From the NCBI GenBank assembly GCA_027488835.1, contig JAIYAW010000009.1, forward strand, positions 372,001 through 436,000: a stretch of 64,000 nucleotides of DNA. The letters run 5' to 3'. Below the pieces are notes generated by a model. The model did no database searches. It was not told the DNA's origin and saw only the letters and a list, made by a program, of their open reading frames with translations. The stretch comes from Bacteroidota bacterium. GTDB lineage: Bacteria; Bacteroidota; Bacteroidia; NS11-12g; UBA955. The stretch's first letter is position 1; each line of letters starts with the position of its first letter. This document shows, piece by piece, positions 11,990 to 24,431 of the stretch. Position numbers and translations under genes: made by a program.

Positions 11990-12017
11990 GTGGGGGGATG
12001 GGGATTCAGGATTCCTG

Positions 12018-12413
12018 CTATTTGACCGCTTCAGCTGAACTGTTAAAATTCCTTACAGCTCTTACAAAGCAAGTTTCCTCAATGGACCTGACAAAATATG
12101 CGGTATCGTTCTGCTCAAAAACTCCCGTTACTTTTACTATACCGGGATTATTAAATTTTGCCAAGTCACGTGCCTCGGTAATAAATCGTTCTTTAAAGTA
12201 ATTGAAAGAATTTTCTTTCATATTCTGAGAATGAACCGTATTGTTTGCTCCACGGGTAGAATTACCGCTGATAAATAATTCTTTGATGCATACAATATTG
12301 CCAAGCGAAATATTTTCCGCTTTGTAAGTAATTCCAAATCCACCTTGCCCAATGACTTCAATGATTCGGTAATTGCTATCAAGTATTGTGTCGATTGGTA
12401 GGTATGATGACAT
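12018..12413 (-). pseudogene. Kinase remnant: N-lobe joined to the tail of an Lcl domain
   Basis: Residues 1-108 closely match the other two MSSYLP kinases in this locus, including the Gly loop GQGGFG and the beta-3 Lys (CIKELF). After AYFV, where the others continue MDFVEGE, the sequence switches to about 23 residues containing CFVRAVRNF. This matches the very end of the Lcl-like domains of the neighbouring kinases (CNVRVVRTL in the 14096-15700 gene, DVRAVRVF in the 22836-24431 gene). The simplest explanation is one in-frame deletion that removed the hinge, C-lobe, membrane segment and most of the sensor. HRD and DFG are absent, so it cannot be an active kinase. It keeps an intact frame and a conserved leader, so a 131-residue N-lobe protein could still be made. 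Confidence 0.85.
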
Positions 12414-12444
12414 AAATTCCTTTATTATTTTTTTAATATTTCCT

Positions 12445-12452
12445 GGAAACTA
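12445..12452 (-). promoter_or_regulatory. Kinase-paralogue leader box, copy 1
   Basis: Read on the minus strand this is TAGTTTCC, 32 nt upstream of the remnant's ATG. The same position upstream of the two full-length MSSYLP kinases carries TAGTTTCG and TAATTTCG. All three resemble the TAnnTTTG -7 box with one or two changes, and the surrounding AT-rich leader is also similar. Confidence 0.35.
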
Positions 12453-12541
12453 AATATTATAAGTTCTTTTTTAAGTAGTTATTTGATGAATATTCAAAAA
12501 GCCGAAAGGTTTAAAATTCTATTTCATCAGTTTTGTAATTA

Positions 12542-13900
12542 CTAATCTTCTTGTGGTATATGGTCAAAAGTATTAGTATTTTGATTATAAATATAATAAA
12601 AAATTTGAGTCCTATCATCCACCGTATAATAATCGCCATATTTGCCAAATATTTCATTGCCTATTAATTGCGATCTTTTTGTTTGAGGATCAATCCACTC
12701 CTTCATAATAAAATCTTTAAACCCTATTGGTGTATCTTCAAACTTTACAACTTGTTCATTATATGTTTGTTCGTCGGCGTATACTTGTTCTTGCGTTGAT
12801 GTTTGTTCTTGTGAATTTACAGAAGAATCGATTATTTGAGTTTCAAGATTATCAACAGCGGATCTTTTGGATAAAACTTCCAACCGTGCAGCAATAATTA
12901 AAAATAGCGCTATAACCAAAACCAAACATATTATGATTATAACTTTTTTGATCGATTTCTCATCTTTTCTGTTAGTATCATCTTTTATTACTGCATTATC
13001 CGGCGCTTTAGTTGTAATTGCACTTGTTAGTTCTAGTTTTTGATTTTTTTGGCTTTGTAATACTTTACGCATTTCAGCAATAGTTTGAAATCTATCCTGT
13101 GGATTCAAATTCATTGCCAACATAACCGCGCTTGATAGCGAAACTGAAATATCAGGAAATAAATTATGAGGAGCAGTCAAAATTTCAATATTTCTGGAAG
13201 TTGCAGGTATAGGTTTTTGGCCTGTAAGTAAAAAATACATTGTTGCACCCAAGGAATAAATATCGGTAAATGCTCCTCTTTTCACCCGTTCATCATATTG
13301 CTCCAATGGTGCATAACCAGGAGTTATCATGGAAGTATGAGTTATGGTATTTCCTTCAGTAAACTGACGTGCAGAACCAAAATCTATCAATACCACACTG
13401 CCATTTTTATCGATAATAACATTATCTGGTTTAATATCTCTATGCAACGTGTTCTTATTGTGCACATATTCCAAAGCATTCATTAAACCATCCATAATCG
13501 ACAACGCCATTTGTAATGTTAGTCGACCATTTTTAGAAACGTAACTTTTTAAAGTTTCGCCTTCTACAAAATCCATAACAAAATATGCAGTTTCATTTTG
13601 CTCAAAAACTCTTGTTACTTTTACAATACCTGGATTATTAAATTTGGCCAAGTCCCTTGCCTCAGTAACAAAACGTTCTTTGAAATAAATAAAAGAATTT
13701 TCTTTAGTATTCTGTGAATGAACTGTATTATTTGCTCCTCGGGTAGAATTACCACTTATGAATAACTCTTTAATGCATACAATATTGCCAAGTGAAATAT
13801 TTTCTGCCTTGTAGGTAATTCCAAATCCACCTTGCCCTATGAGTTCAATGATTCGGTAATTATTATCTAGTATGGTGCCGTTTGGTAGGTATGATGACAT
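12542..13900 (-). CDS. Membrane Ser/Thr protein kinase with unknown C-terminal domain
   Basis: A Hanks-type kinase of 452 residues. Residues ~15-280 hold the catalytic domain: Gly loop GQGGFG (22-27), beta-3 Lys44, HRDIKPDN with Asp near 155, DFG at 174-176, and GYAPLEQY in place of the APE motif. A single membrane segment lies at about 318-338 (IIIICLVLVIALFLIIA). The ~110-residue tail would be extracytoplasmic: a Gln/Glu-rich linker and a compact C-terminal part I do not recognise, different from the Lcl-like tails of its neighbours. The catalytic part is about 88 % identical by hand count to the kinase at 22836-24431. It follows the 14096-15700 kinase by 195 nt and may have its own promoter. 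Confidence 0.93.
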   Translation of the reverse strand: MSSYLPNGTILDNNYRIIELIGQGGFGITYKAENISLGNIVCIKELFISGNSTRGANNTVHSQNTKENSFIYFKERFVTEARDLAKFNNPGIVKVTRVFEQNETAYFVMDFVEGETLKSYVSKNGRLTLQMALSIMDGLMNALEYVHNKNTLHRDIKPDNVIIDKNGSVVLIDFGSARQFTEGNTITHTSMITPGYAPLEQYDERVKRGAFTDIYSLGATMYFLLTGQKPIPATSRNIEILTAPHNLFPDISVSLSSAVMLAMNLNPQDRFQTIAEMRKVLQSQKNQKLELTSAITTKAPDNAVIKDDTNRKDEKSIKKVIIIICLVLVIALFLIIAARLEVLSKRSAVDNLETQIIDSSVNSQEQTSTQEQVYADEQTYNEQVVKFEDTPIGFKDFIMKEWIDPQTKRSQLIGNEIFGKYGDYYTVDDRTQIFYYIYNQNTNTFDHIPQED

Positions 13901-13934
13901 AAATTCCTTTTCTATTATTTTGTTGTTGATTTTT

Positions 13935-13942
13935 CGAAACTA
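13935..13942 (-). promoter_or_regulatory. Kinase-paralogue leader box, copy 2
   Basis: Minus-strand TAGTTTCG, 34 nt upstream of the ATG at 13900, in the same relative place as the boxes before the remnant and the 24431 kinase. It is a candidate degenerate -7 element; no -33 match is visible. Confidence 0.35.
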
Positions 13943-14095
13943 AATATGCTAATACTAAGATAAAAGCTATGTTTTAAGTTTTTCAATGCGGTAATTACAA
14001 ATTCCTTTTTAATATTTTTTATCAATATTTTGAAATCTCGAATATTACTGTGAATAATAATTTGAATAATTCTTAATTGATTTTATCTTAAATCT

Positions 14096-15700
14096 CTACT
14101 TTTTGACCGAAGAGTTTTTTAGAGTCCTTACAACCCTAACATTGCATTTGTATCTCTTATTTAGGTTGTTGGACTGATTACCATTCATAAAATACTGAAT
14201 CCAAGCTTCATCCTTATTGTTTTGTGACGAACTCCAATAATGTTCATTTTTAAACCCTTGAATTTTATCTTTATTGTTATACAATTTATTTAGTTCATCT
14301 TTGGTCGGTAGTCTCCAGTTTTTACCCAAAGAAACGCAAAATTTATTTGCATCATACCAGTTCACTTGATCTGGCAAATCAAATTGAGCAATTTCTAAGT
14401 CCCCTAATTCTGTAATATCACCAATTATGTGTTCTAAAGAAATTTCCGGATCTTTTTTGGAAGTTTCTCTTTTTTCTATTATCGTCTTTTTTTTGATTTT
14501 GGATTGTTCTTCTAAAACTACATGTTTTTCTATCTTTATATGCTCATTTACTTTAGCTTCTACTTTTGCGCGTTTTTTTAAATTTAATTGTTCGCTTTGA
14601 TTAAATGTATTAGCGATTTTTGGATTTGTATGTTTTGATGATTTATTACGAACAAATACAACAGCAACAACTATTGAAATTAATAAAAATACAACTATAA
14701 TTGATTTGCTAACTTTAAACGAATTAATTGGCGGAATTTTATCTTTTTCAATAACTATTTCTTCTTGTACTTTAGCCTGATCTTTTTCTAATTCTAAACT
14801 CAGATTAGACTGAGTAATTGGTTTCGGTTTTATTTCTTTTTTTTGGCTTTGTAATGCTTTACGCATTTCAGCAATAGTTTGAAATCTATCCTGTGGATTC
14901 AAATTCATTGCTAGCATTACCACAGAAGCCAGCGTTTTACTAACCAACGGATTTAGCAATTCAGGTGACTTAAGTGTTTCCAAAAAACGGTCAGTGGCAG
15001 CTATAGGCTTTACCCCTGTTAAAATAAAATAAAAGGTAGCTCCTAATGCATAAATATCAGTATAAGGGCCACGTTTGGTTTTATCACTATATTGCTCAAC
15101 TGGTGCATACCCTGGAGTAAGTATTGCTGTCTGGGTAATTGTATAATCATCAGCAAAATCTCGGGCTGAACCAAAATCTATTAATATAGCTTTCCCATCA
15201 GCCGTAATTATAATGTTATCAGGCTTTATATCGCGGTGAAGCATGTGTTTTGAATGAACTTCCTCAACCGCATCCAATAAATTCAATATTAAGCTAATGG
15301 ACTTTTCTGTGGCTAATGCACCGCCTTCATTTACCATTTGCTTGAGTGTTTGACCTTCGGCAAAATCCATTACAAAATAAGCCGTATTGTTCTCTTCAAA
15401 AACATCCGTAACACGAACTATTCCCGGATGATTGAATTTAGCAAGCCCCCTTGCTTCCTCCATAAATCGCTTCTTGAAATAATCGAAAGAAACATCCTTT
15501 ATTGTTTGAGACTGAACTGTATTATTTGAACCACGGCTACAAATACCGCCGATAAACAATTCTTTAATGCAAACAATGGTACCAAGAATTGTATTTTCTG
15601 CCTTATAAGTAATACCAAATCCACCTTGACCCAATCTCTCAGTAATTTTATATTTACCTTGTAAAATAGTGTCATTTAATAATTCTTGTTGTAAGTTCAT
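14096..15700 (-). CDS. Membrane Ser/Thr protein kinase with Lcl/DUF1566-like sensor
   Basis: 534 residues. Cytoplasmic kinase domain ~17-285 with GQGGFG (24-29), Lys46, HRDIKPDN (155-162) and DFG (175-177). One membrane segment at ~332-351, then a Lys/Glu-rich linker. The C-terminal ~100 residues (NWYDANKFCVSLG, WRLPTKDEL, YWSSS, CNVRVVR) fit the Lcl C-terminal / DUF1566 domain, a compact fold found on surface and signalling proteins and likely to bind a ligand outside the inner membrane. The kinase domain is clearly more divergent than the MSSYLP pair. Its ATG overlaps the stop of the FHA-M48 gene by one base (TAATG), which places it in the same operon as the FHA proteins and PP2C. Confidence 0.94.
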   Translation of the reverse strand: MNLQQELLNDTILQGKYKITERLGQGGFGITYKAENTILGTIVCIKELFIGGICSRGSNNTVQSQTIKDVSFDYFKKRFMEEARGLAKFNHPGIVRVTDVFEENNTAYFVMDFAEGQTLKQMVNEGGALATEKSISLILNLLDAVEEVHSKHMLHRDIKPDNIIITADGKAILIDFGSARDFADDYTITQTAILTPGYAPVEQYSDKTKRGPYTDIYALGATFYFILTGVKPIAATDRFLETLKSPELLNPLVSKTLASVVMLAMNLNPQDRFQTIAEMRKALQSQKKEIKPKPITQSNLSLELEKDQAKVQEEIVIEKDKIPPINSFKVSKSIIVVFLLISIVVAVVFVRNKSSKHTNPKIANTFNQSEQLNLKKRAKVEAKVNEHIKIEKHVVLEEQSKIKKKTIIEKRETSKKDPEISLEHIIGDITELGDLEIAQFDLPDQVNWYDANKFCVSLGKNWRLPTKDELNKLYNNKDKIQGFKNEHYWSSSQNNKDEAWIQYFMNGNQSNNLNKRYKCNVRVVRTLKNSSVKK

Positions 15701-16947
15701 TAATTACAAATGTTATGATAATTGTTTTTAATATGATTCTCAATACAATAAGTTCTTTGCTTACTATATGGGTGTGATCGGAAAAATTTCCCTACTTCTA
15801 TGTCGCTTTCTTTTTGTGACATTCGGTTCCAGAATTGAATAATTGCGCATCCATCATACCCGGCATCAATAGCAAGATCTAAGCCATGAAAATCGCAATT
15901 AGTTTCATCCTTTTGATTAAATGACGTTGTTAAAATATTGTTAGCCAACGCCACAAACTGGCCAAGTTCATTTCCGAAAATATGTTTATAAAAAGCTTCT
16001 TTACGCAAAGCCCAATTTATATGCCCAAGTTCATTATGGTAAATTTCATGACCAAGAATACAAGCAAGCTCATCCTCTGTTTTTGCGAAATCAATAATTC
16101 CAGTTGTTACAAATACTCTACCACCTGCAGTAAATGCATTAATTTCAACGCTTTTAATTACATATATTTTATATATGAATCCCTTTGAAGTTTTGCCAAG
16201 TGTATTTAATAGCCTTTTGAAAATTCCTCCAATTTTGGCTCTAATCTTTACATCATTCACAAACTTGTATTTTTGAAGAGCTTGATTATATGCCTCTTTT
16301 CCTATTTTCATTTCGTCTGCAACACTAAATGGCTTAGTGTTTGAATTGATTGCGTCATCTTGTAAATCTTTACCCAAATTAATTACATCATCTGCTCCAT
16401 TTCCTTCATTTAAGCACGTAAGGTCATAGCTTCGTTTTCTTCTAATCACTGGATTAACGAAATAAATAGAGTCTTTTTTTGAACTTTCAACAAACACTTT
16501 TGTTCCATTCTGGCGAGGTTCTTCTGATTGAGTAGAGTCTTTGTTTAAAATTTCATTTGTGATTATTATTCCACTCTTTTTAAAAAAAATAAAATAACTA
16601 ACAAGTGTTAAAAAAAGAAGTAACACTGTTATTCTCCAAAAAAGCGGTGGCCATTTTAATTTAGATGAGTTATTAATAGGTTCCTCCGGTTGAACATGAA
16701 CATCTCCTGACAAAGCTTCCCTCCAGTTAAAATTAAAATTACCCAATTTAACTTGGTCATCGATATTCAAAACATGGCGATCATTTATTTGAACACTATT
16801 AATGAATGTACCATTCTTTGAATTCAAATCACATATGAATAACTTGCCATTATCATCAATTATTAATTGAGCATGAATAGCAGAAACAGATTTATCATCA
16901 ATAATAATCTGATTTGAATTTGCTCTTCCAATTGAAATAATATTCAT
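15700..16947 (-). CDS. FHA-membrane-M48 metallopeptidase fusion
   Basis: 415 residues. Residues 1-75 form an FHA domain (IGRANSNQIII, SAIHAQL, LNSKNGTFIN), a phosphothreonine-binding fold. One membrane segment lies at ~102-122. The C-terminal half is an M48-family zinc peptidase: HEIYH at 300-304, the downstream ELGH, the third-ligand region around Glu348 (DETNCDFHG), and the M48 tail element RSHPYSKQR. With the FHA inside, the protease would be periplasmic, so the protein could couple a cytoplasmic phospho-signal to proteolysis or chaperone activity in the envelope. It begins 9 nt after the ABC gene and overlaps the next kinase by 1 nt. The fusion is unusual; the domain calls themselves are firm. 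Confidence 0.9.
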   Translation of the reverse strand: MNIISIGRANSNQIIIDDKSVSAIHAQLIIDDNGKLFICDLNSKNGTFINSVQINDRHVLNIDDQVKLGNFNFNWREALSGDVHVQPEEPINNSSKLKWPPLFWRITVLLLFLTLVSYFIFFKKSGIIITNEILNKDSTQSEEPRQNGTKVFVESSKKDSIYFVNPVIRRKRSYDLTCLNEGNGADDVINLGKDLQDDAINSNTKPFSVADEMKIGKEAYNQALQKYKFVNDVKIRAKIGGIFKRLLNTLGKTSKGFIYKIYVIKSVEINAFTAGGRVFVTTGIIDFAKTEDELACILGHEIYHNELGHINWALRKEAFYKHIFGNELGQFVALANNILTTSFNQKDETNCDFHGLDLAIDAGYDGCAIIQFWNRMSQKESDIEVGKFFRSHPYSKQRTYCIENHIKNNYHNICN

Positions 16948-16956
16948 ACAGAATCT

Positions 16957-19248
16957 TTAGTTATTATTTTTTTCCATTTTACCTAACGCGGAAAATATAG
17001 CTATTATCATTACCGCATCAATCGATAAAACAACAATCACATTTTCCGTCAGAGAATTAAATAGTTTCATCATGTTATCGTTATAAAGATTGTTGTTTAT
17101 TTGAATCATAAATAAGTCTTGACTCCGCCCCAAATCTTGAATCCTGCTTATTCCTTCTGTCCCCCAGCGACCAAATGTAAGATAACTTAAAAATTCCGCA
17201 AATTGGCCCTTTAATGGATAAACAACACCAGCAAGCATAATCTGTGGCATTAAAGCAACTGGCAAAATTGACATTACCTCTTCAGCACTGCCGCTGATTG
17301 CGGATAATAATAGACCAAATAAAATAGCAGAAGAACTTATAAAAAGCAAGAAGAATAAAGAGTATGTAAAATTCAATAATCCTCCACTATAAAAAACCTT
17401 GAGCATGATAAGGAAAATAAGTAGTTGTACAAATGAAATACACGATAAAACCAACCACTTTGACAAAACATAATTCCCTGTATTTAGGTTATACATTTTT
17501 TCTCGCCGATAAACATACTTTTCAGCAATAATTTCTCGAGCCGAATTACTTACACCGAACCAGATTGCGGCAACTGCCATGAAAAATAGCACACCAATAT
17601 TGGCAATATCTTTTTTGATTTCAATTCCTTGTGCATTTACAACTTTAACCACTTCCAATATATTGGGGAAAACCAACATTAATAAAAACGCAATAAAAAT
17701 GGGCTGAATGATTAACAAAGCTAAATTTTTATTGTTGCTAACTTTTAAATGAAAATACCTAATTGTTAGCCAATACAATTGACGTAATAAATTTGTGTTT
17801 CTATCTTTTTGGAAATTACCCTGATTTGTAACTACATCTTTTGTAAAAGAACTACCCCATTTTGTATTCCATTCTTTCGAACTTTTCTCGGTATGAAGCA
17901 ATGCATATACTTCTACAATATATTTTTTGTTAAAGTGTTTCAAAAAGTTTTCTTTGGTACCATCATAAACATGATATCCGTGAGAACCTAAAAAAATCAT
18001 TTTATCTACAAAATCTAAATCTTCGGGTTTGTGGGTAACCATAACAACGGTTGTTCCTTCATTACATAAATTGCGAAGACACTTTAAAAACTCTTCTATA
18101 GTTTCAGGATCTAGTGGGCTTGTTGGTTCATCAAGAAATAAGATACTCGGTTTATTTAGTAATTCAACGGCAATAGATATTCGTTTTCTTTGACCACCAC
18201 TTAAACTAGCTACTTTAGTATTCCTTAATTTAGAATCATTGATATTGAGGGACGTTAATACCTCAGTAATTCTAATCTCAATATCTTCATTACTTACATC
18301 ATCTGCCAATCTTAACTTAGCTGCATAATAAAGTGTATCAATTACACTTAAGTCCTGATGTACTATATCGTCTTGAGGTACATAACCTATTTTTTGCTTT
18401 AATAAGGAATAATGCTGATTTAACTCTAGCCCAAACAAGTAAACATCACCACTTGTTGCTGGACTATCTCCATTTAGAGCTTTAAGTAAGGTTGATTTAC
18501 CACAACCACTTGGCCCCATTAATGCAACCATTTGTTGGCCTTGAATGGCTAAATTTATTGGGTGTAAACCTACATTACCATTTTTATAAACCTTACGTAC
18601 GTTAAGCGTTTGAATTGCATACTCTTTATTTAGATTTCTTGTTTCTGCATTTAATGAAAATGTATGTAATCCAATATAAATAATATCATGAGCAGTAATC
18701 TTTACTTTAACATTAGCCTTGACACGGTTTTGATTTATAAAAGTGCCATTCAGACTTCCAAAATCTTCAAGAAAGTAGTCATTTCCTATTTTCTCTATAC
18801 TAGCATGTTTCCTTGAAATAACCACGTCATCTAATACAATATCGCATTCGGCATTTCGCCCAATGAAAATCTGTGTTTTATTTTTCAGTAAAGCAGCAAG
18901 ACCAACTCTGTTAGAACCTGTTTCTGCGGGAGTAGAAAGTTCGCTATCAATAATTATTTCAGCTACAGCATTTTGAGTTAATTTTAATTTGTCGCCATTC
19001 GAAATTGAATATTTTTTTAATGGCTCCATTTGATTATTGTTAAGCCATGTCCCATTGGAACTTGCCATATCTTCAGCATATAAAACGCCATTTTCTAGAT
19101 GAATTTTAAGATGTCGTTTTGATACTGTAGGGTCTTGAATTACAAAAACTCCTTGAGAAGCACCTTCTCTTCCAATAATTAAAAACTCACCTTCTTTTAA
19201 TTCAGAAGAATGCTTTTTCCCATTTGTGAAGATTTGAATAATTGGCAT
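16957..19248 (-). CDS. Double-FHA ABC exporter (ATPase plus ABC2 membrane domain)
   Basis: 763 residues. FHA-1 at ~20-90 (IIGREG, SKRHLKIH, SSNGTWLN), FHA-2 at ~125-195 (FIGRNAECDI, SRKHASI, SLNGTFIN), ABC ATPase at ~210-430 with Walker A GPSGCGKST (245-253), signature SLSGGQRKR, Walker B ILFLDEPTSPLD, and a C-terminal ABC2-type domain with about six membrane segments. The layout matches mycobacterial Rv1747, a double-FHA ABC transporter phosphorylated by the Ser/Thr kinase PknF, so phospho-control of export is a reasonable inference here. The exported substrate is unknown. It lies between the PP2C gene (45-nt gap) and the FHA-M48 gene (9-nt gap). Confidence 0.94.
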   Translation of the reverse strand: MPIIQIFTNGKKHSSELKEGEFLIIGREGASQGVFVIQDPTVSKRHLKIHLENGVLYAEDMASSNGTWLNNNQMEPLKKYSISNGDKLKLTQNAVAEIIIDSELSTPAETGSNRVGLAALLKNKTQIFIGRNAECDIVLDDVVISRKHASIEKIGNDYFLEDFGSLNGTFINQNRVKANVKVKITAHDIIYIGLHTFSLNAETRNLNKEYAIQTLNVRKVYKNGNVGLHPINLAIQGQQMVALMGPSGCGKSTLLKALNGDSPATSGDVYLFGLELNQHYSLLKQKIGYVPQDDIVHQDLSVIDTLYYAAKLRLADDVSNEDIEIRITEVLTSLNINDSKLRNTKVASLSGGQRKRISIAVELLNKPSILFLDEPTSPLDPETIEEFLKCLRNLCNEGTTVVMVTHKPEDLDFVDKMIFLGSHGYHVYDGTKENFLKHFNKKYIVEVYALLHTEKSSKEWNTKWGSSFTKDVVTNQGNFQKDRNTNLLRQLYWLTIRYFHLKVSNNKNLALLIIQPIFIAFLLMLVFPNILEVVKVVNAQGIEIKKDIANIGVLFFMAVAAIWFGVSNSAREIIAEKYVYRREKMYNLNTGNYVLSKWLVLSCISFVQLLIFLIMLKVFYSGGLLNFTYSLFFLLFISSSAILFGLLLSAISGSAEEVMSILPVALMPQIMLAGVVYPLKGQFAEFLSYLTFGRWGTEGISRIQDLGRSQDLFMIQINNNLYNDNMMKLFNSLTENVIVVLSIDAVMIIAIFSALGKMEKNNN

Positions 19249-19293
19249 TTAAAATTGAAATTGATTTACTTTTGAAGTGTTACGTTTTTAAAT

Positions 19294-20511
19294 TCAATTT
19301 GGCTTTTTTGTTTTGAATATTGAATCAGACGAAGTTGTTACTTTGGTCTTTTTTCCCGGATTAACACTTTGAGTTGCATTTCCTTTATTCGCTTTTGATT
19401 TTGACCCTGTTGAATCTAGGACGGTCTTCTTAGTCCTATTTTTATTAGGTTCTTTATCAGTATCAATTACAACTTTCTGTTTTTCTTTGTTTATTGAAAC
19501 TGGAGATTTTACTTTTTCTTTTTTAGATGAGTCATTTATTCCAGAATCATTCAGCATCCTATTCTTTGAATTGACCTTATTTAATGACTTTGAAGAATCT
19601 AAATTACCCGATTTTACACTGATTAAATCTTGCTGTTTTGTATTGCCAAAATAATAAGTGGACGATAGACCTAGGACTAGAATTAAAAATGAAATCAAAA
19701 GAATATTTCTCTTATTTTTAATTTTGACTTTTAAAGGAATTTTATTTAAATCACCGGACGGGATAGTGCTACTTTGTTTCATACCAGAAACTTCTACAAT
19801 AGAAACAGTAACGTTATCTCTACCGCCACCTGCCAATGCTGCTTCAATAAGTTTATCGGATAGTTCCGATAAATTTGAATTGATTATAACCTTAGAAATG
19901 TTCTCGTCATTCACCATACCGGTTAGACCATCGCTACATAGAAGAAAAATATCGTTATTTTCAGGTCTAAAAGGAACCGCACAGAGTTCAGGCTTTATAT
20001 CTTCGTCTGAACCAAGGGCCCGTAAAATTTGATTTTTGTTTGGGTGTTTTTCTGCATCTTCTTCCTTTAATTCGCCTGAATCAACTAAAAATTGCACATA
20101 AGAATGATCTTTAGTTAGTCTTGATAATTTTTCGTTTCGATACAAATAAATTCGACTATCTCCAACATGACAAGTCCATGCAAATCCATCAGGTGTGACA
20201 AGTAATATCACACAGGTTGCACCCATTCCTTTTAATTGTTTGTCAAATATAGCCTTTGCGAAAATCTGTGTATTTGCAAACTTAACGGCATCAATAAGCA
20301 ATTCTCCAACATTTGAATCTACTTTTTTATTCAAATATTCAATAATACATTCAACACCAATTTTAGCGGCAATAGCACCTCCAATATGCCCACCCATTCC
20401 ATCACATACCACATACAAGTGTCCATTGGGAGTTTCTGACTGCCCCATAAAATCCTCATTGGCTTTTCTAACTAAACCAATATCTGTTGAATTAAAATTT
20501 TGAATGTTCAT
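19294..20511 (-). CDS. PP2C-family Ser/Thr phosphatase with membrane segment
   Basis: 405 residues. The N-terminal ~240 residues are a bacterial PP2C/Stp phosphatase: NED at 18-20, DGMGGH (37-42), HVGDSR (115-120), CSDGLT (192-197) and RDNVTV (231-236) supply the metal-binding aspartates. A membrane segment follows at ~269-287, then a ~115-residue Lys/Ser/Thr/Asn-rich tail with no fold I recognise, probably extracytoplasmic. Its likely role is to dephosphorylate the kinases and FHA proteins encoded beside it. It starts 2 nt after the VWA-FHA gene, so the two are co-transcribed. Confidence 0.95.
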   Translation of the reverse strand: MNIQNFNSTDIGLVRKANEDFMGQSETPNGHLYVVCDGMGGHIGGAIAAKIGVECIIEYLNKKVDSNVGELLIDAVKFANTQIFAKAIFDKQLKGMGATCVILLVTPDGFAWTCHVGDSRIYLYRNEKLSRLTKDHSYVQFLVDSGELKEEDAEKHPNKNQILRALGSDEDIKPELCAVPFRPENNDIFLLCSDGLTGMVNDENISKVIINSNLSELSDKLIEAALAGGGRDNVTVSIVEVSGMKQSSTIPSGDLNKIPLKVKIKNKRNILLISFLILVLGLSSTYYFGNTKQQDLISVKSGNLDSSKSLNKVNSKNRMLNDSGINDSSKKEKVKSPVSINKEKQKVVIDTDKEPNKNRTKKTVLDSTGSKSKANKGNATQSVNPGKKTKVTTSSDSIFKTKKPN

Positions 20512-20513
20512 AA

Positions 20514-22094
20514 TTAAAAATTAAAAATTAGTTGAATATTGCCCAATTTGATTACATCTCCATTGGATAGTTCTACTGCTATAAACCCAATATCATTTAT
20601 AGTAGGTATTTTTTTATTATTTACAAATGTGCCATTCGCACTTCCATTATCCCATATGAAGAAACGACCTTCTAACTGTGATGGCAATAGCCCTGGTCCT
20701 TTCTCAAAAGATATACAAGCATGAATTCTAGATACTGTAACGTTATCAATATTCAATTGACAGTTTGCTGCATCCCTTCCAATATTAAAATCAGGAGTAT
20801 TTATTAAAAACTTTGTGCTTTGAGAATTCTTTAATGATGGCAAACGAGGAAATATTTTTAATCGATTGGCTCTACGCTTTATATCATCTTTTTCCAAAGT
20901 TAAGAATTTATTGATCTGCGCTTCCTCTTCTTTAATTTGTTTTTCTCTTAAATGGTCAAGGTTTTGCTTAGCGAGAGCATCATTGTTTTCTTGTTTTATA
21001 CGCTCCATTTTGGCGTCTACTTCCTTTTTAGATTTGTCAAGCTGTATTGACTTCCTCCTAATTAAAAGATAAACTAAAAAAGCGCAACCTGAAAAAACCA
21101 ATGCAACGAGTGCCCATAACCAAGGATATTTTTTTAACCAATGCATTAAACCTGGCGACTGAAAACTGAACTTTGTGGAATCAAAGCCGGTAATCAACAA
21201 CTCCGCTTCATGCATTGAACCATCAGGCTCCACGTTAGACTGATATTCCAATTCATATAAAACCCCGTTACCACGAATTGTAACACTGTTAAGCATTTCT
21301 TTTAAGTTTTGAATACCACGTTCACTTTTGTTTACATCTGCATCGGTATGGTATCCATATGTTTCATTACATATTTTTTGAAAATTGTATTTCTCATTCA
21401 TCAACTTATACCTCATTGCATAAATTGGGATATTGGCTTTTCTAGCGTCATTTATAACTTCACCATCATCATATTTGTCATTATAAATATTACTAAATTC
21501 GGCACTTAATACTAAAATTGCAGGTGTATTTGTACTTTGTTTCCCTGAAAGAAACTGAATGCCTTCAGACATTGCTTGAAAAAGTTCAGTGGCATGAATA
21601 TTTCTAGAATTACCCCCAAATGCCGGAGCTTCAATGTTGTCGATTAGTTTTTTAAATTCATCAATATTAGCGGTTCCGTTATTTTCTAAAATTTCAAGTA
21701 CACGACCGTCTTTCTTATTGGTCCAATCAAAGGTTGCTAGAAAAAAACGATCTCCTTTTTTAAATGAAGCTGGTATGACCGATTGTAATACTTGTTTAAA
21801 ATATTTTCGAGATTGTGCATATTCAGGCCAAACGCTATTTTCAAAAAGAATGAGAATATCTTTACCAGAACTTTTCGAATCCGTTAATCTTTTAAGTTCC
21901 AATTTTATCTTTTTCCCATTTTCAACCAATGCATAATTCGTGGCCTTTTTTTCTTCAGGATTACGATCACAAAATTGAACTGCAATTTTAGGGAAATTGC
22001 TAGGATCAACCGCTTTTATAATAACTGGCTGTGCTTGAGTAGAAATGGTAACAAGAAGTAAAAAAACAATGAAATAAATTTCAACTTTTTTCAT
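20514..22094 (-). CDS. VWA-like / coiled-coil / FHA transmembrane protein
   Basis: About 526 residues from the ATG at 22094; a TTG at 22109 would add five residues, but the ATG gives a better signal peptide (KKVEIYFIVFLLLV... QAQ) and avoids overlap with the upstream gene. Order: signal peptide, extracytoplasmic VWA-like domain (~75-255), membrane segment (~323-345), charged coiled coil (~350-405), cytoplasmic FHA domain (~430-526; NIGRDAANCQL, SRIHACI, SANGTFVN). The MIDAS metal site looks degenerate: the DxSxS position reads FENSVW, and the later Asp position reads LSAEFS. Thr in HATELF may keep the second MIDAS position. A scaffold or sensor joining an outside ligand to phospho-partners is possible. 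Confidence 0.8.
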   Translation of the reverse strand: MKKVEIYFIVFLLLVTISTQAQPVIIKAVDPSNFPKIAVQFCDRNPEEKKATNYALVENGKKIKLELKRLTDSKSSGKDILILFENSVWPEYAQSRKYFKQVLQSVIPASFKKGDRFFLATFDWTNKKDGRVLEILENNGTANIDEFKKLIDNIEAPAFGGNSRNIHATELFQAMSEGIQFLSGKQSTNTPAILVLSAEFSNIYNDKYDDGEVINDARKANIPIYAMRYKLMNEKYNFQKICNETYGYHTDADVNKSERGIQNLKEMLNSVTIRGNGVLYELEYQSNVEPDGSMHEAELLITGFDSTKFSFQSPGLMHWLKKYPWLWALVALVFSGCAFLVYLLIRRKSIQLDKSKKEVDAKMERIKQENNDALAKQNLDHLREKQIKEEEAQINKFLTLEKDDIKRRANRLKIFPRLPSLKNSQSTKFLINTPDFNIGRDAANCQLNIDNVTVSRIHACISFEKGPGLLPSQLEGRFFIWDNGSANGTFVNNKKIPTINDIGFIAVELSNGDVIKLGNIQLIFNF

Positions 22095-22098
22095 GAAA

Positions 22099-22722
22099 TC
22101 AAAATGCAACTCTTAATAAAAAATCATTATTCCCAAATTTCAATTTATCACCATCTTTAATCTCCAAGGTCGCACCTGGTCCTAATTCCACTCCATTAAC
22201 AAAACTTGAATTTGTTGTCATTTCATCGCGTAAGTAAAACATATTGTTGCGAAATAATATCGTAGCATGATGTGCTGAAATTAAACCATCCTGAATGATA
22301 CGAACAGTGCAAGCTGAATCTCTACCAACCTTATTCTGCCCTTCAAACAAACGAAAATCAATACCCATAGCATCAATTGTAAAAGATACCAACCAACCAG
22401 TTAATTTCCTTGTTTGCCTTACACTATTATCATTTGATATAACACCTTCTTTATTTGGAACCCTAATTAAAGTACGATCGTCATCAGTGGGAGAAAAAAA
22501 TGTACTATTGTCTTCTTGATTCGTAGTAAGCTTTTCATTGCCATTTTGACTTTTAGGCTCTTGTTTTACAGTATGCTGAATAATTTGTGTTTTATCTAAA
22601 TCGGATGTATTATTGAAGTTCGTAACCGTTTTAGAATTACTTTCATTGCAATAAGGACAATCGCTTAAAGAGGATGCATAATAATGACCGGCTTTGCACG
22701 TTTTAAAAGATGGATTTGACAT
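22099..22722 (-). CDS. Zinc-ribbon FHA protein
   Basis: 207 residues, soluble. The N-terminus has C9-x3-H13 and C22-P-Y-C25, a zinc-ribbon-like knuckle. A polar linker with several Thr (DKTQIIQ, DDDRTLIRV) could carry phosphorylation sites. The C-terminal half is an FHA domain (NKVGRDSACTVRI, SAHHATI, TTNSSFVNG); the usual NG turn reads NSSFVNG. It is the first gene of the tight run that continues through VWA-FHA, PP2C, ABC, M48 and kinase. Its start is 113 nt after the upstream kinase. Thr motifs N-terminal to FHA domains are classic phospho-switches (for example GarA), but that role here is inference. Confidence 0.85.
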   Translation of the reverse strand: MSNPSFKTCKAGHYYASSLSDCPYCNESNSKTVTNFNNTSDLDKTQIIQHTVKQEPKSQNGNEKLTTNQEDNSTFFSPTDDDRTLIRVPNKEGVISNDNSVRQTRKLTGWLVSFTIDAMGIDFRLFEGQNKVGRDSACTVRIIQDGLISAHHATILFRNNMFYLRDEMTTNSSFVNGVELGPGATLEIKDGDKLKFGNNDFLLRVAF

Positions 22723-22835
22723 ATTGTTTTATTATAAATTTTATATTGTTTTGATAGTATGCTTTGCAATTATACACTTTTTAGATAATAAATTGATTAT
22801 TTTCCAATTAATCAGTTAGTTAACTATTTAAATAT

Positions 22836-24431
22836 TTAGAAAACCCGAACAGCCCGAACATCATATAAGTGAGATTTGTTGTCGAAGTCAAACTCTATAG
22901 CACCATATTGAAAACTCTGTATAAACGCGAGTACATTATTAAACTCACTGTAACTCCATAAATAACAAGCTGTTAAACCCTTTATTTTGTCTTTGTTTTT
23001 ATACATTTTTTTTAGTTCCTCTTTTGTAGGAAGTCTCCAATTATATCCCAACGATGCACAAGCTTCCTTTGCTTGATACCAATTCATTCTATTGGGGAAA
23101 TTATATTGAGCAATTTCTAAATTATCAAACTCTATTGGTACACCTATCACGGGATTGGATAAATTATTTGTTTTATTTAAAAGTTTTAATTCTTCAGCAG
23201 TTATGCGTTCTTTTTCTTTGTTTCGTTCTTTAATACTTACTCTTTCTTCAGCTTTTACTCGTTCTTCTTCCTTCAGTCGCTCTAATTCTTTTTCTTGAAC
23301 TTCTAAATTTGCTTGTTCTTCTGCACTTATTTGTTGATCCACATTTGTTTGTTCTTCTACATTATCGTTATTCACGTTAGTTGAGTCAAAAGTAATTGCT
23401 GGAATAGAAACTTCGGGTATAGAGCTTTCTGATGATTTAGTACCAATAATAACAGCTGTAGTAATAATTAAAAAAAGCACAATTACAATAAAAAAATCAC
23501 CCATTACAAAGTTCCTTCGGCTAGGTTTGCTGACTTCTTCTGGAACATCAGGTTTCGGCTCAGGTGTCGGATCCTCTTTTTGGCTTTGTAATGCCTTGCG
23601 CATCTCTGCAATGGTTTGAAATCGTTCTTCAGGCTTCAAATTCATAGCTAACATTACCGCACTAGATAACGAAACGGAAATATCTTCAAACAAATGATGC
23701 GGGGCTGCTAAAGTTTCCAAACCTCGGGAAGTGGCAGGAATAGGCTTTTGACCAGTCAGCAAAAAATACATAGTTGCTCCTAGTGAATAGATATCAGTGA
23801 AAGCACCTCTTTTAACACGCTCATCATATTGTTCCAATGGCGCATAACCAGGAGTGATCATTGAAGTGTGAGTTACTGTGTATCCCTCAGTAAATTGACG
23901 TGCCGAACCAAAATCTATTAATACTACTTTTTCGTTTTTATCAATTATAACATTATCTGGTTTAATATCTCTATGCAACATGCCCTTGTTGTGTACATAT
24001 TCCAATGCATCCATTAAACCTTCCATAATTGGCAAAGCTTTCAACAGTGTTAAGCGACCATTTTTAGATACGTAACTTTTTAAAGTTTCGCCTTCTACAA
24101 AATCCATAACAAAATAAGCAGTATCATTCTGCTCAAACACACCTAGTACTTTTACAATACCAGGGTTGTTGAATTTTGCCAAATCACGAGCCTCAGTGAT
24201 AAAACGTTCTTTAAAATGATTGAAAGAATTTTCTTTCATATTCTGAGAATGAACAGTATTGTTTAATCCTCGAGTAGAATTGCCACTAATAAATAATTCT
24301 TTAACGCATACAATATTGCCAAGCGAAATATTTTCAGCTTTGTAGGTAATACCAAAGCCACCCTGCCCAATGGTTTCAATGATTCTAAAATTGTGATCAA
24401 GTATTGTTCCGTTGGGTAAGTATGATGACAT
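22836..24431 (-). CDS. Membrane Ser/Thr protein kinase with Lcl/DUF1566-like sensor
   Basis: 531 residues. Kinase domain ~15-280 with GQGGFG (22-27), Lys44, HRDIKPDN (153-160), DFG (174-176) and GYAPLEQY. Membrane segment ~310-330. A Glu/Lys/Arg-rich stretch at ~365-415 should form a coiled coil, so this kinase may dimerise outside. The last ~95 residues are an Lcl/DUF1566-like domain (NWYQAKEACASLG, WRLPTKEEL, YLWSYSE, DVRAVRVF). The sensor resembles that of the 14096-15700 kinase, whereas the catalytic half is nearly the same as the 12542-13900 kinase. It is the most upstream gene of the cluster. Confidence 0.94.
   Translation of the reverse strand: MSSYLPNGTILDHNFRIIETIGQGGFGITYKAENISLGNIVCVKELFISGNSTRGLNNTVHSQNMKENSFNHFKERFITEARDLAKFNNPGIVKVLGVFEQNDTAYFVMDFVEGETLKSYVSKNGRLTLLKALPIMEGLMDALEYVHNKGMLHRDIKPDNVIIDKNEKVVLIDFGSARQFTEGYTVTHTSMITPGYAPLEQYDERVKRGAFTDIYSLGATMYFLLTGQKPIPATSRGLETLAAPHHLFEDISVSLSSAVMLAMNLKPEERFQTIAEMRKALQSQKEDPTPEPKPDVPEEVSKPSRRNFVMGDFFIVIVLFLIITTAVIIGTKSSESSIPEVSIPAITFDSTNVNNDNVEEQTNVDQQISAEEQANLEVQEKELERLKEEERVKAEERVSIKERNKEKERITAEELKLLNKTNNLSNPVIGVPIEFDNLEIAQYNFPNRMNWYQAKEACASLGYNWRLPTKEELKKMYKNKDKIKGLTACYLWSYSEFNNVLAFIQSFQYGAIEFDFDNKSHLYDVRAVRVF

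Follow-up and report, generated by a model that had tools for sequence, protein, structure and literature searches.

Working from within the cell, Hanks-type kinases with FHA readers target transporters, enzymes and secretion machines, and YscD/PrgH, TagH and GltG are FHA proteins of membrane machines. Among zinc peptidases of the M48 family, LoiP is an outer-membrane lipoprotein, and BepA (YfgC) of E. coli has, to our knowledge, no FHA domain. Here, we describe a gene in which an FHA domain is joined through one predicted membrane segment to an M48 peptidase domain (FHA-M48). It lies in a 64,000-nucleotide stretch of a Bacteroidota bacterium (assembly GCA_027488835.1, contig JAIYAW010000009.1, positions 372,001 to 436,000; hereafter the window), in a cluster with genes for Ser/Thr kinases, a PP2C phosphatase and an ABC exporter. 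We put at slightly better than even the chance that its product is a single-pass inner-membrane protein coupling cytosolic threonine phosphorylation to a periplasmic M48 metalloprotease, with binding of the FHA domain to phosphothreonine recruiting it to the exporter/kinase complex.

The closest described systems each share part of this design. BepA is periplasmic (PMC8423444) and has a tetratricopeptide repeat (TPR) domain (PMC7950410); FHA-M48 has in common with it the M48 fold, the HExxH motif, the glutamate ligand and the HPX4R plug, but not the TPRs. With the Geobacter M48 protein of PDB entry 3c37 and the small M48 proteins of LoiP type it shares a single M48 domain, which is here hung on an FHA domain and a membrane segment. 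YscD/PrgH, TagH and GltG offer the same succession of FHA domain, membrane segment and far-side domain, the far side in FHA-M48 being the M48 peptidase; no Pfam family of the YscD/PrgH ring-building kind is found in FHA-M48 at E 0.01, residues 241-400 matching M48 and residues 122-206 matching nothing. The neighbourhood recalls Rv1747-PknF of Mycobacterium tuberculosis, an FHA-FHA-ABC exporter adjoining a Ser/Thr kinase (PMC3908365), and the same module layout recurs here as an FHA-FHA-ABC-ABC2 polypeptide clustered with Ser/Thr kinases; Rv1747-PknF is, however, described as a two-gene operon, which leaves M48, VWA-FHA and PP2C outside it (PMC3908365). Gene triads of kinase, PP2C and standalone vWA protein have also been reported (PMC7159879). 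Linked kinase, phosphatase and vWA genes are common to those triads and the cluster, whereas the cluster's VWA protein has a leader and an FHA fusion, and exporter and M48 genes are present in addition (compared with the triads as PMC7159879 presents them). In searches of the open-access literature, we found no protein in which FHA or PP2C is joined to M48 through a membrane segment. We rate each part as known, the arrangement being an M48 protease of BepA/3c37 fold placed under a Hanks-kinase/FHA module.

Sequence and predicted fold of FHA-M48

An earlier note on this DNA, made from the sequence alone, had placed in this open reading frame (ORF) an FHA domain (residues 1-75), one membrane segment (~102-122) and an M48 protease with HEIYH at 300-304 and a third ligand around Glu348, and each of these features was borne out. 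The ORF is real and its coordinates correct; it runs on the minus strand, from an ATG at 16947 to a stop codon that ends at 15700. Pfam FHA (PF00498) matches residues 4-69 (64.5 bits, cut-off 20.7, E 1.2e-17), the hydropathy maximum of the protein falls on residues 101-121, where the AlphaFold2 (AF2) model has a helix, and E348 aligns with the glutamate of 3c37. That model, made with 14 family members, has a mean pLDDT (per-residue confidence) of 73.4 and a pTM (predicted template modelling score) of 0.57, and consists of an FHA domain and an M48 domain with the helix between them and low-confidence linkers on either side; residues 122-206 have no Pfam match of their own.

The FHA domain is predicted to bind phosphothreonine, its residues matching the GR / SxxH / NG motifs that serve this purpose in FHA domains (PMC1262709). 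G7, R8, S22 and H25 are kept in 21 of 22 FHA-fused family members, the remaining one being truncated at a contig end; all 22 have N45, G46 and N50. The fold of this half resembles many FHA domains, including FHA-2 of Rv1747 (6cah; Z 10.1, root-mean-square deviation (rmsd) 2.1, 75 residues aligned), and the region also matches Yop-YscD_cpl in Pfam (42.4 bits, cut-off 33.2).

The other half has the residues expected of an M48 member, and we take FHA-M48 to be a predicted zinc metalloprotease of this family. Over residues 241-400 the Pfam model Peptidase_M48 (PF01435) scores 72 bits (cut-off 20.3, E 7.4e-20), and every one of the 42 family members keeps H300, E301, H304, E348, H392, P393 and R398. 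Because the peptidase residues are intact, an inactive peptidase core, the contingency that the earlier note had reckoned with, is not supported. The stretch H392-P393-x4-R398, absent from that note's description, is the HPX4R plug motif, characterised in BepA, whose H246 serves as fourth zinc ligand (PMC7950410). In the structure comparison, which listed 50 matches, mostly FHA domains and four covering the M48 part, the M48 half aligned with E. coli BepA (6ait_C; Z 19.4, rmsd 3.3, 190 aligned) and with 3c37 (Z 18.3, rmsd 3.4, 192 aligned); 3c37 is also the top PDB match by sequence (E 5.2e-18). To call the domain BepA/YfgC-like, as had been proposed, is apt for the fold; the protein, however, ends just past the M48 domain and lacks the C-terminal TPR domain of BepA. 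Its scores fall far below the cut-offs of the NCBIfam-type models for BepA (NF052400; 60.1 against 570 bits) and LoiP (NF052399; 52.7 against 365 bits) and of the two HtpX models listed (18.6 against 369 and 17.4 against 355 bits).

A patchy family and the orientation of its domains

FHA-TM-M48 proteins (TM, transmembrane segment) form a patchily distributed family. Scanning GTDB genomes yielded 51 pattern matches; the 14 that could be confirmed as relatives all read FHA, membrane segment, M48, and their records are Bacteroidota metagenome-assembled genomes (MAGs) or taxa within Bacteroidota. One of them, at locus L044, is without its first residues at a contig end and was classed as FHA by reading its sequence. 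With further members from searches around four of the confirmed genomes, the working set holds 22 FHA-TM-M48 ORFs in 21 genomes, the window included, which makes the architecture more than a chance fusion. This count treats L044 and L088 as one genome (G462), judging from matching contig number and coordinates, and genome G464, whose gene is apparently split over two contigs (L094, L095), was excluded from tree and counts. FHA-M48 was found in 2 of 57 genomes of the window's neighbourhood, its own included, and in a phylum-wide sample of 395 genomes it was found in 1 (its own), five more matching with an unfused M48; few candidates were scored per genome (4 to 18, cut at E 1e-30 to 1e-60), and the absences are accordingly soft. 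The 2 of 57 genomes that have FHA-M48 are also the 2 with FHA-ABC, suggesting that these genes were gained or lost together.

The FHA domain is most likely cytosolic and the M48 domain periplasmic, the orientation that the earlier note had proposed. The comparative evidence supports it, indirectly, and the charges of the window protein itself do not. Unfused forms, that is, M48 without FHA or PP2C, account for 18 of the 42 family members, and a hydrophobic, signal-peptide-like leader is present in nearly all 18 (weak at L105, with an uncertain start at L106); 14 of them lie near at least one FHA-ABC gene (L031, L036, L039, L060-L063, L085, L087, L089, L091, L104, L105 and L109). In genomes G561 and G661 (L092 and L093), near-identical proteins join a PP2C phosphatase through a membrane segment to the M48 domain; to act on this kinase system, the PP2C would need to be in the cytosol, and the M48 domain would then lie outside. 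In the FHA-fused members, cysteines number 2.8 per 100 residues in the M48 part and 0.66 in the FHA domain. Cys178 and Cys401 occur together in 39 of 42 members and are jointly missing from 3; for Cys367 and Cys414 the corresponding numbers are 30 and 12, and neither pair has a discordant member. The remaining pairs co-occur less strictly. Strict co-occurrence on the M48 side would be the pattern expected of disulfides. Lastly, net charge around the membrane segment favours an N-in orientation in 21 of 24 fusions (22 FHA, 2 PP2C).

Several points tell against this orientation. The signal peptides were called by inspection of the N termini and their hydropathy, and the cysteine pairs represent few independent changes on the tree. 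Counted by lysine and arginine alone, 19 of 24 fusions are N-in and 5 the opposite; by net charge, three deviate, namely the window protein, L040 and L031, the last being the window protein's nearest relative. The membrane segment of the window protein has two lysines or arginines before it and three after, which is not positive-inside, and its net charge also runs the wrong way; for this protein alone, the charge rule points to the opposite orientation.

A maximum-likelihood tree built from the M48 part groups all FHA fusions (22), both PP2C fusions and eight unfused copies, of which six are in tandem with a fused one, in one clade (100/99); the ten members outside the fused clade are all unfused. 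As those ten are unfused, the ancestral form was probably an unfused, exported M48 to which a cytosolic partner was added later. An approximately unbiased test does not reject all FHA fusions as one clade (p 0.097), and we therefore claim neither a single nor a multiple origin of the FHA fusion. The tree is rooted on one distant outgroup row, the one of five intended that passed the motif filter, and requires 3 label changes without this row and 4 with it. At L060, an FHA-TM protein without M48 stands two genes from an unfused M48 with a leader; its FHA is closest to that of the fusions (up to 54% identity), and the pair is either a natural split version or a remnant of a fusion. The six unfused M48 genes at L031, L036, L039, L085, L087 and L089 lie near a fused copy, directly adjoining it in five of six cases, with a gene for a LEA_2-type membrane protein next. 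Among five pairs compared for nonsynonymous and synonymous substitution (dN/dS), dS is unsaturated in both domains for L036-L039 alone, with values of 0.040/0.359 (~0.11) for FHA and 0.047/0.342 (~0.14) for M48; linker dN exceeds the dN of both domains in all five pairs.

The kinase, phosphatase and exporter cluster

The conserved family and its kinase/phosphatase/exporter cluster reach beyond the earlier note and are the larger finding. The cluster genes (Table 1) share one strand, with mostly tight spacing, in the order kinase 1, Cys-rich FHA protein, VWA-TM-FHA, PP2C-TM, FHA-FHA-ABC-ABC2, FHA-M48, kinase 2 and kinase 3; the start of kinase 2 overlaps the FHA-M48 stop codon by one base, its last. 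All five FHA matches of the 2.5 Mb genome and all three of its kinases above the Pfam cut-off fall within the cluster, which is thus compact enough to rebuild. Three weaker kinase matches are the remnant listed in Table 1 and two places elsewhere (29.4 and 22.9 bits; cut-off 31.7). The same members recur in other genomes in varying order. By BLAST, 29 of 35 loci have an FHA-ABC gene near the family M48; among FHA-fused loci besides the window the figure is 20 of 21, the miss (L043) having its contig end just after the gene. A gene for a LEA_2-type membrane protein accompanies the M48 in 19 of 35 loci, with Pfam confirmation in 4 of 4 tested. These searches covered stretches of 4.5 to 21 kb, and absences on short contigs mean little.

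The phosphatase exceeds the NCBIfam Stp1/IreP cut-off (245.9 against 230 bits). Pfam reports no VWA in the window's VWA-FHA protein and sub-threshold VWA in two of three relatives; the AF2 model of this protein matches VWA domains over residues ~75-280 (for example 4fx5, Z 19.6, rmsd 2.6, 180 aligned). Its VWA-fold domain resembles TFIIH p34-type and BatB VWA domains, and a membrane segment and a long helix lead on to the FHA domain. The kinase remnant has the N-lobe of a cluster-type kinase abutting an apparent Lcl_C tail, as after an internal deletion. Over their first ~100 residues, kinase 1, kinase 3 and the remnant are very similar, suggesting recent duplication or gene conversion.

Three 4-kb blocks of the cluster (12001-24000) have 31.6-33.3% G+C, against 33.4-39.2% in the other blocks; this low G+C and the presence in 2 of 57 genomes make horizontal gain of the cluster possible. 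A promoter scan was uninformative, with 64 found and 62.1 expected. A defence system was considered by way of PADLOC alone, run on six cluster proteins, and was set aside. PADLOC gave no match for FHA-M48, VWA-FHA or the small FHA protein, and its matches for kinase 1, FHA-ABC and PP2C (among them PD-T4-6, mad3/mad6/mad8 and PDC-M21C) we read as shared kinase, ABC and phosphatase domains. Among plasmids, 210 records matched, and in none did a single place cover 80% of the query; the best record, from Flammeovirga kamogawensis (H1), aligns over residues 211-407, and the 13 features listed around that match include no FHA, kinase or phosphatase product.

Table 1. Positions of FHA-M48, its predicted parts, the cluster genes and related genes at other loci (L numbers); plain coordinates are those of the window
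Feature	Position	Strand	Basis or remark
FHA-TM-M48 protein, 415 aa	15700..16947	minus	ORF and translation; Pfam; AF2 model
FHA domain, residues 4-69, with G7 R8 S22 H25 N45 G46 N50	16741..16938	minus	Pfam; conservation; fold
Single membrane segment, residues 101-121	16585..16647	minus	hydropathy; AF2 helix 101-121
M48 peptidase part, residues 207-415	15703..16329	minus	Pfam 241-400; structural match to BepA 6ait over 207-415
HEIYH, residues 300-304	16036..16050	minus	invariant H300, E301, H304
E348, predicted third zinc ligand	15904..15906	minus	invariant; aligned with 3c37
HPYSKQR, residues 392-398, M48 active-site-plug motif HPX4R	15754..15774	minus	invariant H392, P393, R398
FHA-FHA-ABC-ABC2 exporter, Rv1747-like layout	16957..19248	minus	Pfam; 9 bp upstream of FHA-M48
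PP2C phosphatase, one membrane segment (270-288)	19294..20511	minus	Pfam; NCBIfam Stp1/IreP; hydropathy
N-terminal hydrophobic leader, VWA-fold domain, TM 332-350, FHA	20514..22109	minus	Pfam FHA; AF2 and structure comparison for VWA
FHA protein with N-terminal Cys-rich (zinc-ribbon-like) stretch	22099..22722	minus	Pfam FHA; Cys stretch read from sequence
Membrane Ser/Thr kinase 1	22836..24431	minus	C-terminal Lcl_C 32.1 bits, just below cut-off 34.9
Membrane Ser/Thr kinase 2, C-terminal Lcl_C domain	14096..15700	minus	Lcl_C 48.3 bits against 34.9
Membrane Ser/Thr kinase 3	12542..13900	minus	Pfam; hydropathy
Remnant of fourth kinase, N-lobe only	12018..12413	minus	Pkinase 15-110, 31.2 bits, just below cut-off 31.7
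PP2C-TM-M48 fusion	L092:2381-3991	plus	same M48 module, phosphatase in place of FHA
PP2C-TM-M48 fusion	L093:9443-11053	minus	same M48 module, phosphatase in place of FHA
Split pair: FHA-TM protein and unfused M48 with leader	L060:6845-7375 and L060:8192-9019		
Unfused M48 genes with leader	L031:12805-13623; L036:2348-3151; L039:11222-12025; L085:8490-9296; L087:10527-11330; L089:2943-3740		

A proposed mechanism and its alternatives

In the mechanism that we propose, the parts of the membrane kinases beyond the membrane would sense an envelope signal, and the kinases would phosphorylate threonines on themselves and on cluster partners, such as the exporter. The cytosolic FHA domain of FHA-M48 may dock on such a phosphothreonine, which would bring the protein to the FHA-FHA-ABC exporter or kinase assembly, where the periplasmic M48 domain could cut or fold exported cargo or the ectodomains of partners; the PP2C phosphatase would reverse the docking and reset the system. 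Rv1747-PknF provides a precedent for coupling of kinase, FHA domain and exporter, in which PknF phosphorylates Rv1747 and both FHA domains are required for their interaction (PMC3908365). The catalytic and phosphothreonine-binding residues, the conservation of the family and its membership of the cluster are read from sequence and comparison; the phosphothreonine ligand, the recruitment, the substrate and the gating by phosphorylation, which the earlier note had also suggested, are what we infer from them.

Some findings count against this mechanism, in which catalysis, phosphothreonine binding and gating are predictions. Eight unfused members sit inside the fused clade, and around four M48 members (L106, L107, L108 and L110) the sequence retrieved contains no such cluster; therefore, neither the FHA domain nor the cluster is required by all M48 proteins of the subfamily. 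The LEA_2 partner, moreover, was looked for in the window's own genome and not found.

Other explanations can be set against the same evidence. FHA might merely hold a constitutively active periplasmic M48 quality-control protease at a membrane complex, with phosphorylation altering neither its activity nor its place. The same M48 is found untethered behind a leader in related clusters and also joined to PP2C, which fits such a static tether, the type of anchor varying over an intact M48; yet the phosphothreonine-binding residues are kept in every FHA member that has those positions, beyond the needs of an anchor, and FHA dN is low in the sole pair of the five with unsaturated dS, and we regard this explanation as unlikely. 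The exchange of FHA and PP2C under one periplasmic domain is also what a sensor with exchangeable outputs would look like, and L060 has an FHA-TM protein without M48. Signalling might then run from the outside in, the M48 domain sensing or cutting an envelope substrate, or itself, and the cytosolic FHA (or PP2C) acting as output. We think this quite improbable, given catalytic residues that are invariant, as for an enzyme, and an M48 that also exists without any cytosolic part.

HtpX, itself an M48 protein, carries its catalytic domain in the cytosol, and the charges on either side of the window protein's membrane segment give no support to N-in. A hairpin or HtpX-like arrangement with both domains cytosolic nevertheless has very little to recommend it beside the leaders on close M48 relatives, the PP2C-TM-M48 proteins, the cysteine pairs on the M48 side and the N-in net charge of 21 of 24 fusions. 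A low probability also attaches to an M48 part that acts mainly as a chaperone or assembly factor rather than as a protease: BepA promotes LptD maturation besides its degradation role (PMC8423444), and against such a role stand zinc and catalytic residues invariant in 42 of 42 members, although an intact site is compatible with it. That FHA-M48 is an artefact, an assembly chimera or a frameshift fusion, is hardly conceivable; the named carriers are MAG records, but the same architecture appears in 22 ORFs from 21 genomes, with low dN in both halves of the one testable pair.

Beyond the single protein, we tentatively propose, at somewhat less than even chance, that the family comprises transmembrane phospho-readers that steer periplasmic proteolysis, an M48 domain being swapped among signal peptide, FHA-TM and PP2C-TM anchors within a machine of threonine kinase, phosphatase and FHA exporter, and cytosolic phosphorylation setting the site of the protease. 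The unfused, FHA-fused and PP2C-fused forms offer a natural comparison set. If the proposal is true, a covalent link from a phospho-reader (in two genomes, a phosphatase) to a protease on the far side would be an unfamiliar way to pass the state of phosphorylation across the envelope, and the cell may use internal phosphorylation to direct protein cutting outside its membrane.

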